DNA from: Chryseobacterium formosum
GTDB taxonomy: Bacteria > Bacteroidota > Bacteroidia > Flavobacteriales > Weeksellaceae
Direction of reading: 5' to 3'
DNA length: 64,000 nt
NCBI RefSeq assembly: GCF_026460885.1
Contig: NZ_JAOVZW010000018.1
Location: 62,001 to 126,000, forward strand
Positions within the stretch are counted from its first letter, which is position 1, and the number at the start of each line of letters is the position of its first letter. The notes beneath the pieces are model-generated. The model was not told where the DNA came from. It searched no databases and saw nothing but the letters and a program-made list of their open reading frames with translations. Position numbers and translations under genes: made by a program. Shown here in pieces: positions 58,187 to 62,387 of this stretch.

Positions 58187-58324
58187 TTTGTTATGTTGAG
58201 CAGAGTGTAACGACATCGAAACATTTCTGCGGCTTTTATATGAACTTCTTCTCTTCGTGGAGATTCTTCGACCTCGTTTCAGAACTCCGTTCGTTGACCT
58301 TCAGTCAATGCTCAGAATGACAGT
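58187..58324. repeat. Inverted-repeat element, copy A
   Basis: It begins TTATGTTGAGCAGAGTG and ends CTCAGAATGACAGTG; the core contains ACATCGAAACATTTCTG and GAGATTCTTCGAC. Compared with copies B-D it carries extra bases (TTTCAGAACTCCGTTCGTTG) before the right end. Between the start of the 57.6-kb gene and the GIY-YIG gene. Confidence 0.75.
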
Positions 58325-58336
58325 GTCTCATAATTC

Positions 58337-58645
58337 TTATATCTCATCATTTAAAGATTTCCATTCGGGATTAAAAGCATTAATCAATTTTTCTTTCTTT
58401 TCCCTTTTCCAACCTTTCAGCTGTTTTTCTCTGTTAATCGCTACTTCCACATCTTGAAAGTGTTCATAGTAGATGAGATAAAAACTTTTATACTTCTGCG
58501 AGAAATGCAAATCATGAGCTTCCGGATTCCGATGCCAAAACAGCCTTTCTTTTAAGTTGTTTGTAATCCCTATGTACAAAACAGTTTTGATTTTGTTTGT
58601 CAGGATGTATACATAATAATTATGCGTTCCTTTTGTTTTGTACAT
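58337..58645 (-). CDS. GIY-YIG nuclease domain protein
   Basis: 102 residues forming one GIY-YIG domain: YYVYILTN (first motif), VLYIGITNNLKERLFWHRN (second motif with the conserved Arg), and INREKQLKGWKREKKEKLIN with the catalytic-type Glu. The family contains structure-specific or homing-type endonucleases; standalone short members (UPF0213-like) have unproven roles. Here the gene is bracketed by inverted-repeat copies A and B, 12 and 27 bases away, which is notable. Same strand as the surface genes. Confidence 0.88.
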   Translation of the reverse strand: MYKTKGTHNYYVYILTNKIKTVLYIGITNNLKERLFWHRNPEAHDLHFSQKYKSFYLIYYEHFQDVEVAINREKQLKGWKREKKEKLINAFNPEWKSLNDEI

Positions 58646-58672
58646 TTTAGTTTTACTTAAACTGTTATTGAT

Positions 58673-58780
58673 TTGTCATGTTGAGCAAAGCAGCAACGTC
58701 GAAACATCTCTTTATCTTTTATAAGAACTTCTATGCTTCGAGAGATTCTTCGACTCCGTTGCACTTCGCTCAGAATGACA
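58673..58780. repeat. Inverted-repeat element, copy B
   Basis: Left end TTGTCATGTTGAGCAAAGC, core AACGTCGAAACATCTC and ATGCTTCGAGAGATTCTTCG, right end CGCTCAGAATGACA. Shares ACTTCTATGCTTCGAGAGAT with copy C. About 108 bases, immediately upstream of the GIY-YIG gene. Confidence 0.8.
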
Positions 58781-58805
58781 TTAGTTCGCTTTAATTTACG
58801 GCGGT

Positions 58806-58938
58806 TTGTCATGTTGAGCAGAGCGTAGCGGCGTCGAAACATCTCTGCAGTCTTTGTATGAGCGTCTTCTCTTTATTTTTATGAACTTCTATGCTTCGAG
58901 AGATTCTTCGACTTCGCGCTGCTTCGATCAGAATGACA
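58806..58938. repeat. Inverted-repeat element, copy C
   Basis: Left end TTGTCATGTTGAGCAGAGCG, right end GATCAGAATGACA. About 25 bases longer than B, with TGAGCGTCTTCTCTTTATTT inserted before the shared segment. Same orientation as A, B and D. Confidence 0.8.
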
Positions 58939-58963
58939 GAATCTCTCTTTTAGAATCATCGTC

Positions 58964-59028
58964 TCTCACCGTTCGGGTGAAGACTCTCTTACCGCTCGGG
59001 TGAGGGGGTCTCACTCGGGCGGTGAGAG
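58964..59028. repeat. Three-fold CACCG-TCGGGTG palindromic cluster
   Basis: CTCACCGTTCGGGTGA (58965-58980), CTTACCGCTCGGGTGAG (58988-59004) and CTCACTCGGGCGGTGAG (59010-59026). The last two pair as a hairpin of about 19 bp with a 5-base loop of G/T; GC-rich in an AT-rich genome. It lies just past the stop of the HU/Ig-fold gene but has no T-run. Confidence 0.65.
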
Positions 59029-59037
59029 CATCTCTTC

Positions 59038-59769
59038 CTATTGTACTGTTAGTACCTTATCAAATTCTGCTGTTCTAGGGTCTTTTAAAAGCTTACTTGC
59101 AGAATATTGCGTTACCACCTCAAGCTTGTAAGTTCCGGCAGACAAAGCAGGAATAATCACGATTAGCTCCGAAGGATTGTTCACTACTACCTCGCTTTCT
59201 TCTACCTGAGTACGATCATTAGTATCTGTATTGATAAAGAATATCCCGTTTGCTGCGGCATCTCCTGCTACTTTAATTTTGCTTCCAGATACTTTCAGAT
59301 TTCGTCCCGGTGTAAGTATATCGTTGATGGTACCACTTTTCACATCTTTTACCTGTAAGATGGCTGATGAAGCATCTGCCACACCCAGAATATTAATTTC
59401 TATATTTGGGATTTCTGCTCTCAGCTTTTCTCCCTGGTTGAACTGGAAAAGAATGCTGTGCTTGGTGCTGTTGAAAGTCTCAGACGGACTGTCAAATACC
59501 CCACGGATCTGAGTTCCTGCCGTGAAATATCCCGTGTTTACCGAATAACCGTCGCATAGTTGATACGCCATTTCCTTAAGAAAAAGCTCTGTAGCATGCT
59601 CCATGGCACCGGCAGAAACATCTGCTCCTCCTCTATTTGCTGCTGATTCACAGATTTGTTTTACGGATAATGAACGCTCACTCACAGTACGTGCGATGAA
59701 ATCGTTCGGGTTGTCTTTGGTTAAAAAGTTATCGTATAGATACGCTTTGATTTTGTGTAAGATTGGCAT
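59038..59769 (-). CDS. HU-like DNA-binding protein with DUF4469 Ig-fold domain
   Basis: 243 residues, no signal peptide. N-terminal HU/IHF-like domain (about 1-125: KAYLYDNFLTKDNPNDFIAR, SERSLSVKQICESAANRGGA, YQLCDGYSVNTGYFTAGTQI) and a C-terminal Ig-like DUF4469 domain (about 135-243: LTPGRNLKVSGSKIKVAGDA, SELIVIIPALSAGTYKLEVV). Bacteroidota-specific; abundant in gut Bacteroides as well. It is unusual to find this cytosolic nucleoid-type protein inside a run of exported surface genes. Repeat copy D lies 37 bases upstream of its ATG. Confidence 0.85.
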   Translation of the reverse strand: MPILHKIKAYLYDNFLTKDNPNDFIARTVSERSLSVKQICESAANRGGADVSAGAMEHATELFLKEMAYQLCDGYSVNTGYFTAGTQIRGVFDSPSETFNSTKHSILFQFNQGEKLRAEIPNIEINILGVADASSAILQVKDVKSGTINDILTPGRNLKVSGSKIKVAGDAAANGIFFINTDTNDRTQVEESEVVVNNPSELIVIIPALSAGTYKLEVVTQYSASKLLKDPRTAEFDKVLTVQ

Positions 59770-59806
59770 TTGTGTATGTATTTAATTGTTAATTTTTTGT
59801 TTTCGT

Positions 59807-59906
59807 TTGTCATGTTGAGCAAAGCGTAGCGACGTCGAAACATCTCTGCAGTCTTTGTAAGAACTTCTTCTCTTTGAGAGATTCTTCGACTTCGCTCAGA
59901 ATGACA
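59807..59906. repeat. Inverted-repeat element, copy D
   Basis: TTGTCATGTTGAGCAAAGCG ... CTTCGCTCAGAATGACA, 100 bases: the most compact copy, with GACGTCGAAACATCTCTGCA and GAGAGATTCTTCGACTTCGC. Lies between the 59.9-kb secreted gene and the HU/Ig gene. Confidence 0.82.
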
Positions 59907-59949
59907 ATACCATGTCTGCCGAAGTCGATCTCTCTCTCTTTTATTATTT

Positions 59950-60588
59950 TTAGCTTCCGTTGCCACTAAGCGCCGGAGCAGTTGTACCCGCTTTACAAGT
60001 GGTAACAATCGATGTACTACAAATTGCCAGCAAAGCACCAGAGGTACCACCACCACCATTCATCGTTAGTGTTGTAAAAGGTGCAGGAGCATGTATGCGG
60101 AAGCGACCACCACCACCATAAGGAGGAAGAGTTCCTGTCCCGGTTATAGTATTCCCGCTGATTGAAGTACTGCAGCTATTGAGTGCAGTTATAGAGATTG
60201 TCCCCCCATTGGATACAAAACGGAAATTTTCACCAGCCTCTGTAGCAGATATTAAAACCACAATATCATTAACGGGATAAGAAAAGGTAAGTGCCGTTTG
60301 CCATGTAGCACTTCCACCAGAACTACTTCCTACCAAAAGACTGTTATTGGAAAATGAATCTACACCGCAACTTGAGTATGTAGCAGCAAATGTTGATACA
60401 AATCCTGTAGAAGCAGATGTTACTGTGATCCCATTAACACTAAATGTGCCATTGGGAGGTATGTTTGCTGTACCTCCACATGCCTGTGCTTTTACCATAC
60501 CGGCACCGGCAAACAGCATTGCCCCCAAAGCCAATATCTTGACTGACGCAAAGGTTTTTCTTATTAAATTATTTTTTATTTTATTCAT
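59950..60588 (-). CDS. Secreted surface-type protein, short paralog
   Basis: 212 residues from MNKIKNNLIRKTFASVKILA; 16 more codons are open upstream but the shared leader fixes the start. Signal peptide ends near VKAQ. The mature domain is Gly/Ser/Thr-rich with beta strands (ITVTSASTGFVSTFAATYSS, VVLISATEAGENFRFVSNGG) and Cys pairs. It stops shortly after TTCKAGTTAPALSGNGS, the same linker as the 56.6-kb and 60.9-kb genes. The leader and 5' UTR are nearly the same as those of the frameshifted neighbour. Confidence 0.7.
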   Translation of the reverse strand: MNKIKNNLIRKTFASVKILALGAMLFAGAGMVKAQACGGTANIPPNGTFSVNGITVTSASTGFVSTFAATYSSCGVDSFSNNSLLVGSSSGGSATWQTALTFSYPVNDIVVLISATEAGENFRFVSNGGTISITALNSCSTSISGNTITGTGTLPPYGGGGRFRIHAPAPFTTLTMNGGGGTSGALLAICSTSIVTTCKAGTTAPALSGNGS

Positions 60589-60614
60589 CTTATTTGTTGT
60601 TATTTTTTTATTAA

Positions 60615-60681
60615 AGATGTTTCTGCAGGTCAGCATGACTGCGCTCTATTCTGAGATCCTTCGGCAGGCTCAGGATGACAG
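60615..60681. repeat. Partial inverted-repeat element, copy E1
   Basis: AGATGTTTCTGCAGGTCAGC ... CTGAGATCCTTCGGCAGGCT then CAGGATGACA. The right half is family-like with GATCCTTCGGC instead of GATTCTTCGAC. It abuts the conserved 5' UTR of the 59.9-kb gene. Confidence 0.6.
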
Positions 60682-60705
60682 TGCTATACTCATAATGACA
60701 GACTT

Positions 60706-60849
60706 TTGTCATGTTGAGCACAGATGAGGTACAAGCACAGCTTGTAACGAAATCTTCGAACGTAGTTCTGTAGCGACGTCGAAACATCTCTGCGACTTTA
60801 TAAGAACATCTTCTCTTTTTGAGATCCTTCGGCTGCGCTCAGGATGACA
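60706..60849. repeat. Inverted-repeat element, copy E2
   Basis: TTGTCATGTTGAGCACAGAT at the left, GCTGCGCTCAGGATGACA at the right. The middle has TAGCGACGTCGAAACATCTC as in D plus an insertion carrying AGCACAGCTTGTAACGAA, which recurs inverted in copy F (TTCGTTACAAGCTGTGCTTG). Confidence 0.7.
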
Positions 60850-60897
60850 GTGCGCAAGCTTAGGATAAGAATACTTTGTTAATAGATTCTTCGGCGA

Positions 60898-60931
60898 GCT
60901 CAGAATGGCAGTGAATATGCCATTCTGAGCG
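60898..60931. repeat. 13-bp perfect palindrome, possible terminator of the 60.9-kb gene
   Basis: GCTCAGAATGGCA and TGCCATTCTGAGC separated by 7-8 bases, 23 bases beyond the stop at 60954 on the minus strand. It is made from two family right ends facing each other (compare GCTCAGAATGACA). Confidence 0.65.
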
Positions 60932-60953
60932 TTTGCCCAAGCATATTTTTATT

Positions 60954-62214
60954 TTAATTAATACTAGGTCCCGTAGATAAGCAACAATTGATTGTTACGG
61001 TTACTGCATTACTTACAGGGCTATAGCAATTATTGGTACTGTCGTAATAAAAAGCATAGTATGTACCTGCCGTACCTACAGCAGCAGGAGTGGAAACAGC
61101 TGTACCGGCATGTGTATTATTATTAAACCATACCAAGCTCGATCCCGAAGGTACGGTTGCTGTATGCAGACTGTTAAGATTCACTGTAGTAGTAGTAGTA
61201 GTAGGACACGTATTGCTAAGCGCAGTACCGGTAAGTGGTGGTGCAGTATATCCTGCGCTACACTCTAAAGAAGTAGTAGAAACAGGACAGAAACTGTTAA
61301 CATTTGCTGCTGTTTTAGACCATGCTCTGCGAGTTATCATAGCAGCCGGGTTATATAGAAAATCATACATCAACTGAGCCAGATTAATGTTTGCCTGACT
61401 ATTATCTCGAATAGCTGTTGATGATGGTGTTAATCCTGTCAGAGAACCTTGCACTTCTCCACTGAGATAGGCGAAACCATTGATTCCCGCTGCTTTTGCA
61501 TTAACATCTCCCGGATAAGAGGGAGCAATAAAATCTGAAGCTGGAGTTCCGCATGTTGCAGCGCTTATAGGTTTTACATATGAGAATACAACAGATTCAC
61601 GTGGTATACCGGAAAATGAATAAGCAGAACCCGTGGTGGCAACAGAAGTAGCTGAGGCATTTAGATTCAACGGACCGCCATTGTTATGATAAGCTCTTAC
61701 AGGATTGGGAAAAGAGGTTGCATCCCATGTACTTACAATAGTTACTCCTGATTGTATCAAAAGCTTTTCGCCAATATATTTATTGACTTCTGTTCCACTG
61801 GCGCTGTCAATGAATACACGCTCCATACTCCCTATCAATATGCCGCCCTGCTTTACGTATGCCACCAGCGCATCTGCCTGTGCCTGTGAAATGATACGTG
61901 AAACCGCAAAATCATTTATAAAAATAGCCTGTATATTTGCATAAGCACTTACCGAAGTAGCCAGGTTAGATGCTATTATTCGGAGCAGTATCTGTAGTCC
62001 GTACGACTCCGTTCATAGTTACATCTCCAAATATACTAGTCAATGTGCTTACATCAACAGGAGTAGCACCAGTACCACTCCCTCCAAATGCAAGCATATT
62101 CAGGTTTTGCTGTCCTTTTGCAGTAACTGCAGTAAATAACAGTAAAACTCCCAAAGCCAATATCTTAAACGATGCAAGGGCTTTCCTTATTAAATTACTA
62201 TATGTTTTATTCAT
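60954..62214 (-). pseudogene. Secreted surface protein split by a frameshift
   Basis: Frame 1 (61966-62214) gives signal peptide MNKTYSNLIRKALASFKILA and the start of a domain (LNMLAFGGSGTGATPVDVST) but stops after TAPNNSI. The rest continues in another frame, open from near 61985 to 60954: IASNLATSVSAYANIQAIFI, VKQGGILIGSMERVFID, then CSAGYTAPPLTGTAL and one C-terminal repeat (LVWFNNNTHAGTAVSTPAAV, YYAFYYDSTNNCYSP). Dropping one A in CCGAATAATAGC (about 61975-61983) would restore one protein of about 419 residues. The 60954-61865 part has only an internal GTG as start. The N-terminal half looks like a GATase-like/DUF4350 alpha/beta fold. It could be a true pseudogene, a phase-variable switch or a sequencing error. 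Confidence 0.75.
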
Positions 62215-62240
62215 CTTATTCGTTGTTATTTTTTATTAAA

Positions 62241-62387
62241 AGATGCTTCGGCAACCATCATGTTCTGAGATCCTTCGACTGTTTCGCTTCGCAGAACTAC
62301 GTTCGCAAACTTCGTTACAAGCTGTGCTTGCTTCTCATTTGCGCTCAGGCTGACAGAGTGCCATACTGAGCGCTTGCCGAAGCATCT
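62241..62387. repeat. Inverted-repeat element, copy F, with 14-bp perfect ends
   Basis: AGATGCTTCGGCAA (62241-62254) and TTGCCGAAGCATCT (62374-62387) are perfect inverted ends. Inside are TGAGATCCTTCGACTGTTTC, TTCGTTACAAGCTGTGCTTG and GCGCTCAGGCTGACAGAGTG. Lies between the stop of the large adhesin and the 5' UTR of the frameshifted gene. Confidence 0.75.

Follow-up and report, generated by a model that had tools for sequence, protein, structure and literature searches.

A small GIY-YIG gene in the 64,000-nucleotide stretch of DNA analysed here (the window) sits between two pairs of short hairpin arms, and its association with such arms is strongly supported and specific to one GIY-YIG subfamily. 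The gene probably forms the coding core of a tiny selfish element with tagged hairpin ends; how the arms would be cut, as what substrate and by which route the unit would be copied belong to the conditional part of this reading and are set out below.

The repeats and the GIY-YIG gene in the window

The repeats are present in the window as first described. Repeat families and alignment bore out the family named in the initial annotation (copies A–D, E2 and F and a partial E1), with F degenerate and E1 consisting of one good arm; the five elements A, B, C, D and E2 were delimited by direct-repeat families together with alignment. The unit had been taken to be an element of about 100–150 bp. Inverted pairs do exist, but the basic repeat unit is an arm of 25–45 bases that is itself a hairpin; an element is two inverted arms, whose stem triplets may differ from each other (here GTT/AAC and TCT/AGA).

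Element A (58188–58323) contains two inverted arms, the left with the tag TGTT and the right (58262–58322) with a very long loop, and lies 13 bases off the 3' end of the GIY-YIG gene (58337–58645, minus strand). Element B (58673–58781), with arms at 58674–58708 on the plus strand and 58744–58780 on the minus strand, lies 27 bases off the 5' end. The earlier spacing for B is thus retained, and the 12 bases given for A become 13 by coordinates. Element C (58806–58940) is structured from arms at 58807–58843 (plus) and 58902–58938 (minus), and element D (59807–59907) from arms at 59808–59844 (plus) and 59880–59906 (minus). Element E2 (60706–60850) has a left end that is longer than in A–D by extra sequence and a right arm at 60823–60849 (minus). 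No strand is assigned to these five elements. The single arm E1 (60655–60680, minus strand) has the stem ATCCT/AGGAT, and a relaxed scan added a degenerate arm with the tag TGCC (60885–60910, minus strand). The degenerate element F (62258–62362, minus strand), a relative of A–E2, was identified from repeat families and alignment; its positions 62292–62355 are 83% complementary to 60707–60770 of E2.

Strict hairpin arms number eight in the 64-kb window, all at 58674–60849. TGTCATGTTGAGC occurs 12 times in the window at up to two mismatches, compared with 1.39 expected by chance, and 10 of the 12 occurrences fall in 58.1–60.9 kb. No Rfam match was found in 57.5–63.0 kb at E values up to 1. The surroundings had been described as a run of surface genes; of the three neighbours scanned with Pfam, the one at 59038–59769 is an HU-like DNA-binding/DUF4469 protein and the remaining two gave no match.

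The GIY-YIG gene, at the centre of the unit, encodes 102 residues that match PF01541 (E = 1.1e-15). The predicted fold (pLDDT 89.7) is closest among solved structures to the UPF0213 protein BH0048, followed by Slx1 and the UvrC N-domain. Tyr-13, Tyr-24, Gly-26, Arg-34, His-38, and Glu-73, which we take to be catalytic-type residues, are invariant across 37 proteins, and Asn-92 is nearly invariant. On the domain match, these conserved residues and the modelled fold, the protein belongs to the GIY-YIG nuclease superfamily.

Paired changes in the arm stems

The arms follow the layout TGTC-AT-XYZ-loop-Z'Y'X'-AT-C, usually with two arms facing each other. The loops in 80 related loci are mostly 9–21 bases long, 11 being the commonest length, and the tail is C or CT. 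Fold energy compared with shuffled sequences was mixed across six elements: B (z = −4.96) and E2 folded better than shuffles, A (z = −1.18) and D (z = −1.97) weakly so, and C and F no better. The stem triplets were therefore examined instead of relying on fold energy alone. They are complementary at 375 of 768 sites (shuffled mean 64, maximum 84) in a scan that, like the density scan below, demands AT or A[CT] after the tag beforehand; the triplets change on both sides together. With three scrambled tags, no arm pair and no more than a single arm turned up within 250 bp of the gene.

Arms flank the gene at related loci

Within 250 bp of the gene, arms detected by the strict pattern lie on both sides at 41 of the 80 loci, compared with 7 of 1110 other ORFs from the same loci; the corresponding figures for arms on at least one side are 63 of 80 and 114 of 1110. 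Arm density falls from 8.44 per kb at 0–100 bp from the gene to 0.05 per kb at 7–10 kb. An inverted-arm flank score of at least 20 was reached by 24 of the 77 GIY-YIG genes with enough flank and by 16 of 1042 other ORFs in these loci. The strict detector found no arms at 17 of the 80 loci, a few of which show variant inverted arms. Within the same genus, a strict arm is present at all 22 high-scoring loci and at six of the eight lower-scoring ones, all eight of which have inverted arms.

Arm similarity also tracks protein similarity: with loci that have no genus name counted as different genera, the Mantel correlation across genera is r = 0.51 (0 of 2000 permutations); shared host ancestry may account for part of this correlation. 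Paralogues within one genome carry different arm types.

The pairing is specific to one GIY-YIG subfamily

Across 41 Bacteroidota genomes, and among the matches listed, arms accompany 17 of 19 genes of the subfamily (score limit 94, chosen after the scores were known) and 2 of 72 other GIY-YIG frames, which include broken fragments, tandem copies and one 435-residue frame. The initial annotation had proposed enrichment beside this subfamily as a test; such enrichment was found both here and at the 80 loci. Omitting the four genes of the source genome leaves 13 of 15 with arms, and a score of at least 70 admits 24 GIY-YIG genes, 18 with arms, again among the matches listed. Nearly all short frames listed were surveyed, the exceptions being a frame at the end of a contig and three frames of 271–278 residues; counts cover profile-matching frames, which excludes UvrC-size loci and a few others, and the duplicate regions L255 and L258 were removed before the subfamily count. 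Arms were not found at two subfamily genes, L211 and L246.

These arms occur at 0 of 28 GxxExxY genes and 2 of 24 DUF559 genes, and at Y1/RAYT-type transposase genes in 1 of 34 cases in one scan and 0 of 27 in another (scorable loci: 28 of 30 GxxExxY, 24 of 30 DUF559, and 27 of 34 Y1). The Y1 genes have their own, different palindromes, with inverted flanks scoring at least 14 at 19 of 27.

Arm abundance is tied to the subfamily in part. The median number of pattern arms per genome is 47 in the 11 genomes with the subfamily and 4 in the 30 without it (p = 7e-4), but eight of those 30 still have at least 15, all among the matches listed. G002 is the richest of the 41, at 271 pattern arms, and lacks both a small GIY-YIG gene and a Y1 gene; in G010, with 72, the sole GIY-YIG match is UvrC-size as judged by eye or length; G005, also arm-rich, has no Y1 match. 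Because the arm pattern behind these counts captures a single layout, it undercounts genomes whose arms are laid out differently. An opposite arm within 200 bp, forming an inverted dimer, is present at 14 of 15 loci read in G002 and 7 of 15 in G010. The arm list of the source genome holds many plus/minus neighbours, and gene-less arm dimers are scattered through genomes.

The arm–gene–arm unit at different sites

In sequence comparisons, the unit with both arms recurs at more than one site, and homology stops at the left end of the element. The unit lies between transporter-like and sensor-kinase-like ORFs at locus L008 and between YfhO-like and glycosyltransferase-like genes at the homologous loci L009 and L397 (names assigned by eye). 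Homology of L008 with the other two begins at the left TGTC tag; the right end is less sharp, as the automatic alignment overran the tag into AT-rich sequence. Gene-less deletion derivatives (L272 and L281) retain one or more arms and the last codons of the gene, and one site is empty, filled or decayed among related genomes.

The unit is located between sufB and sufC in A. lipoferum and is missing from five other Azospirillum records, in which comparison the intergenic region appears replaced, not cleanly interrupted. No target-site duplication was evident at the suf site, at the YfhO–glycosyltransferase site or by element comparison, none of which offered a very close filled/empty pair; the matches listed for the Rhizobium site L131 included no useful empty site. 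Because several sites are common to related species, the copies are not all recent arrivals.

The pairing recurs in several bacterial phyla

The pairing had been suggested for a Bacteroidota repeat. The association holds there and extends to Proteobacteria and a cyanobacterial plasmid, so that it recurs in several bacterial phyla. CGTC arms lie on both sides of the gene in Azospirillum, Shinella, Rhizobium, Neorhizobium, Sphingobium, Aeromonas, and Neisseria, and TGTC arms flank it in the cyanobacterial plasmid (Planktothrix). Eighteen of 32 plasmid records were examined; 14 of these 18 non-Bacteroidota records have arms on at least one side and 11 on both. The 18 reduce to about 15 independent sites, since three Sphingobium records have one site in common and two Shinella records another; of these sites, 11 have at least one arm and nine have both. 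Clear arms were not seen at the Photobacterium and R. tumorigenes copies, the Sinorhizobium K101 copy has weak arms only, and a Novosphingobium arm is without the stem-initial AT.

A proposed mechanism and its alternatives

We infer that the unit works as follows. Inward-pointing REP-like arms, the hairpin repeats tagged TGTC or CGTC, would form its ends. Most likely these arms are recognised by the unit's own protein when they have folded into hairpins, whether in single-stranded DNA or in a cruciform; the protein would then cut at the hairpin base, after which repair would copy or move the unit. Internal deletion of the gene would leave inverted arm dimers, such as A–F in the window, and on these gene-less dimers the protein could act in trans, a relation much like that between REPINs and RAYT. 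The GIY-YIG nuclease is a strong candidate for the driver of CGTC/TGTC repeats.

It is unlikely that another transposase (RAYT/Y1 or an IS) moves the arms and that the GIY-YIG gene is its cargo or frequent neighbour. The source genome does have six Y1_Tnp matches, and some genomes rich in arms have no such GIY-YIG gene; yet Y1 genes carry palindromes other than these arms, which are missing from all 27 in one scan and 33 of 34 in the other, G002 and G005 have no Y1 match, and arm number shows no clear relation to Y1 presence (p = 0.11), Y1 being the transposase family that these comparisons covered. For REPs it is established that hairpins as large as these can terminate or stabilise a transcript, but arms that are terminators or mRNA-stabilising hairpins bordering a small gene by chance are a highly improbable explanation for inward-pointing pairs so much commoner around this gene than around other ORFs, for the scarcity of arms at other GIY-YIG frames and for gene-less dimers spread through genomes.

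The protein might also be a host repair nuclease that clears cruciforms, beside which repeats gather by selection or chance and not as mobile ends. The fold nearest to UPF0213 and the branched-DNA nuclease Slx1 would suit this role, and in several species of the genus the gene keeps to one site, as if some copies had been inherited vertically. The explanation is nevertheless quite unlikely in view of the unit with both arms at another site, the site that varies between related genomes from empty to filled or decayed, the differing arm types of paralogues in one genome, and the lack of a match, at the cut-off used, in 24 of the genus's 78 genomes.

Should the selfish-element reading be true, an unrelated nuclease fold would have arrived at the REP–RAYT way of life. 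The odds seem even for a broader reading, in which the short interspersed repeats of these bacteria would be traces left by single-gene nuclease elements, and several folds unrelated to one another would each have their own repeats: HUH/Y1 (RAYT) its own palindromes, GIY-YIG the TGTC/CGTC hairpins (as the missing enzyme of the CGTC repeats in several phyla), the PD-(D/E)XK protein GxxExxY the ACCACAGAGG-type repeats, and DUF559 the CCCCTCC..GGAGGGG palindromes. A small, specific candidate enzyme with a clear putative substrate makes the question of the CGTC-repeat enzyme testable at the bench.

Comparison with known systems

Among the papers listed by a literature search covering few subscription papers and no bioRxiv preprints, none was on a GIY-YIG/hairpin-arm pairing, and those listed for the repeat words as text were unrelated. 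A close parallel is with REP/REPIN–RAYT (TnpA-REP) systems, or REPtrons. There too, short hairpin repeats with a tag form inverted dimers, the gene of a small nuclease lies inside its own repeats, gene-less copies are many, and protein and repeat type vary together. The differences are the enzyme, GIY-YIG rather than an HUH/Y1 tyrosine enzyme, and the tag, TGTC/CGTC rather than GTAG. A REPtron has a PF01797 gene bracketed by the repeats; the gene bracketed here is GIY-YIG, and none of the 27 Y1 genes is.

By protein alone, the GIY-YIG protein resembles the small UPF0213 proteins such as BH0048 (1zg2) in size and fold. Free-standing GIY-YIG homing endonucleases, of which the T4 seg genes are an example, are also small GIY-YIG nucleases that spread their own gene, as is proposed here; they are not known to carry tagged hairpins at their ends or to have a large family of gene-less repeats.

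The CGTC-tagged REP superfamily defined by Di Nocera et al. 2013 (PMC3733652) is characterised by 8–9 bp stems, 4–5 bp loops, a CGTC or TGTC tag, a complementary AT start and inverted dimers. These palindromic repeats are widespread, including some of Neisseria and Rickettsia, and according to the paper that defined them no dedicated transposase appears to serve them (PMC3733652). The taxa overlap with our gene–arm cases in A. lipoferum, S. meliloti, N. aromaticivorans, and Neisseria. The arms described here have an unpaired CGTC/TGTC tag at one end, a stem-initial complementary AT by reading (the scans presuppose AT or A[CT]) and mostly an inverted-dimer arrangement, clear in G002 but less so in G010. 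Most Proteobacterial arms share the tag, AT stem start and inverted dimers of the superfamily, and many fit its 8–9 bp stem, 4–5 base loop and CCA tail; Bacteroidota arms differ in often having shorter exact stems and longer loops.

Anatomy of the repeat arms

The repeat copies A–D, E2 and a degenerate F, together with single arms, are present in 58.1–62.4 kb of the window as the initial annotation had claimed, and the GIY-YIG nuclease ORF it had placed between A and B is found there (58337–58645, minus strand, 102 aa). The basic unit is an arm of ~25–45 bases rather than the whole element. Each arm runs from a TGTC tag through a stem (AT plus three variable bases) and a loop to the complement of the stem and a final C. 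Arms frequently occur in facing pairs, and the triplets may differ between both arms of one element, including in the window. Among 80 loci carrying relatives of the gene, the triplet was complementary in 375 of 768 TGTCAT...ATC sites, against a mean of 64 and a maximum of 84 after shuffling, and in only 7–20 of 257–581 sites at control anchors. Thirteen triplet types were found in at least two of these loci each, and the most frequent loop lengths were 11, 21, 9, 12, and 10. GCT/AGC, CCT/AGG, and GGT/ACC versions of a single arm occur together in one genome (G002). The 64-kb window holds eight strict arms, all within 58674–60849, and the 4.54-Mb genome has 56 arm-pattern matches vs 2 with the reversed pattern. 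A different inverted repeat, CTCTCACCGTTCGGGTGA / TCACTCGGGCGGTGAGAG, adjoins element C at 58963–59028, and a protein with an HU-like DNA-binding domain and DUF4469 is encoded between C and D (59038–59769).

Arms lie beside one subfamily of small GIY-YIG genes

The association of arm and gene is well established. The 80 loci are the best of at least 551 relatives, picked by protein similarity alone. Scanning 250 bp to either side of each gene detected strict arm pairs at 41/80 GIY-YIG loci vs 7/1110 other ORFs, and arms on at least one side at 63/80; one-sided arms were found at 107/1110 other ORFs. Among 784 ORFs more than 2 kb from the gene there were 2 pairs and 35 one-sided cases, and arm density drops with distance from 8.44/kb to 0.05/kb. 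Flank inversion scores of at least 20 were reached by 24/77 GIY-YIG genes vs 16/1042 other ORFs.

In an even sample of 41 genomes of the phylum, covering nearly all short GIY-YIG frames among the matches listed, frames were scored by a profile built from the 80 proteins. The predicted enrichment beside subfamily genes was borne out: arms accompany 17/19 genes scoring at least 94, a cut-off set once scores were known, vs 2/72 lower-scoring frames (Fisher p = 2.4e-14), two subfamily genes lacking them. The window's own genome supplies 4 of the 17; leaving it out gives 13/15. In that genome the window gene, L001, L003, and L004 have arms, and L005, L006, and the UvrC-size L007 showed none in the scanned flanks. 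Within the genus, where 54/78 genomes have a match, 30 loci were examined. Each of the 22 with a high score has one or more strict arms; the 8 with lower scores each have inverted GTCATTGCGAGG-type arms, which the strict detector recognises in 6. Other small GIY-YIG genes in close tandem copies (L157, L168, L225, L226, and L242) are armless.

TGTC arms were absent at 33/34 Y1_Tnp genes (0/27 with arms in a second scoring) and at all 28 GxxExxY genes, and were present at 2/24 DUF559 genes. These families can have palindromes of their own, with flank inversion scores of at least 14 at 19/27 Y1_Tnp, 17/28 GxxExxY, and 7/24 DUF559 genes, vs 35/1042 control ORFs for the GxxExxY comparison. Y1_Tnp palindromes such as GGGCTTTAGCCC (L118–L122, L170–L198) are unlike TGTC arms; GxxExxY (PD-(D/E)XK) genes (PF13366 loci L325–L354; also L269, L283, L285, and L294) frequently show inverted ACCACAGAGG..CACAGAG-type flanks, and some DUF559 genes (PF04480 loci L355–L384; L262:853-1338) inverted CCCCTCC..GGAGGGG-type palindromes.

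Protein similarity follows arm similarity between different genera (r = 0.51, 0/2000 permutations, 89 genes), a correlation from which host ancestry is not fully removed. The left and right arms of one gene resemble each other (about 0.58 vs 0.22 for random arms, 62 genes), and paralogues within one genome carry different arms (L232 and L233 of G011, for example).

The relationship is looser in the other direction. Of the initial proposal that repeats go with the gene, the enriched pairing stands; abundance agrees with it only in part, and 8/30 subfamily-free genomes hold at least 15 arms. One of these arm-rich genomes, G002, has 271 TGTC pattern arms, many adjoining or nested in CGTCATTGCGAGG arms (L415–L443), yet no Y1 gene and no small GIY-YIG gene was found in it. 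Such genomes may have lost the gene, or something else may drive the arms.

Probable movement and decay of the unit

Of 78 genomes of the genus, 30 were read at the site between genes named by eye as YfhO and glycosyltransferase, and arm–gene–arm is present there in five, one copy being broken. L272 retains both arms with only the gene start and last codons, L281 one arm and the last codons, and L291 a single arm; the remaining genomes have different arms, another ORF, or an empty site. Tiny palindromes in L277 and L289 may be scars. GxxExxY-like ORFs occupy this site in several genomes, and in G012 a PF13366 match adjoins its gene. A homologous unit lies elsewhere, at a transporter–kinase site, in L008, and its homology with L009 and L397 (both YfhO site) begins at the left tag. 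The A. lipoferum unit lies between sufB and sufC and is absent there in five other Azospirillum records read; in a Shinella record, too, the interval between these two genes holds a GIY-YIG gene, flanked by CGTC arms. One palindrome-flanked DUF559 gene occupies the same interval in Sphingomonas. No target-site duplication was found at the sites compared.

Relatives outside Bacteroidota

A plasmid tblastn search returned 32 records with relatives, some from taxa (A. lipoferum, S. meliloti, Neisseria, and N. aromaticivorans) named for CGTC repeats in PMC3733652. In 14 of the 18 records fetched, arms stood no more than 250 bp from the gene on one or both sides, with 11 records having them on both; the 18 represent about 15 independent sites. 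Flanks, when read, showed a CGTC tag and a stem without the AT start in Novosphingobium, only weak arms at L133, and no clear arms at L132 and L136. The 80 loci also include MAGs with the labels Chlorobiota, Neomarinimicrobiota, Clostridiales, and others; several of these have arms, and MAG labels need caution. On a Planktothrix plasmid (L127:9678-10594), an arm-flanked GIY-YIG gene lies inside a DISARM defence cluster, with an MmeI-like enzyme on one side and drmA on the other.

A candidate enzyme for TGTC/CGTC repeats

The fold model of the GIY-YIG protein (pLDDT 89.7, pTM 0.81) is nearest to UPF0213 BH0048, the sole solved match at E <0.001, followed by the branched-DNA nuclease Slx1 and the UvrC nuclease domain. 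Such a fold would suit a structured DNA substrate. Residues that we take to be of catalytic type are conserved in 37 proteins. We propose that the protein would nick its own arm at the hairpin base, and that repair after the nick may spread the arm–gene–arm unit.

Our literature search found no report of a small GIY-YIG gene paired with TGTC/CGTC repeats, and a term search found no "GIY" in the main text of PMC12306157 or PMC6006769. According to the 2013 paper defining CGTC-tagged repeats, these elements apparently lack a dedicated transposase, and no RAYT or IS200 genes are flanked by CGTC units (PMC3733652). The small GIY-YIG nuclease, a candidate as yet unproven, is likely the dedicated enzyme of TGTC/CGTC repeats.
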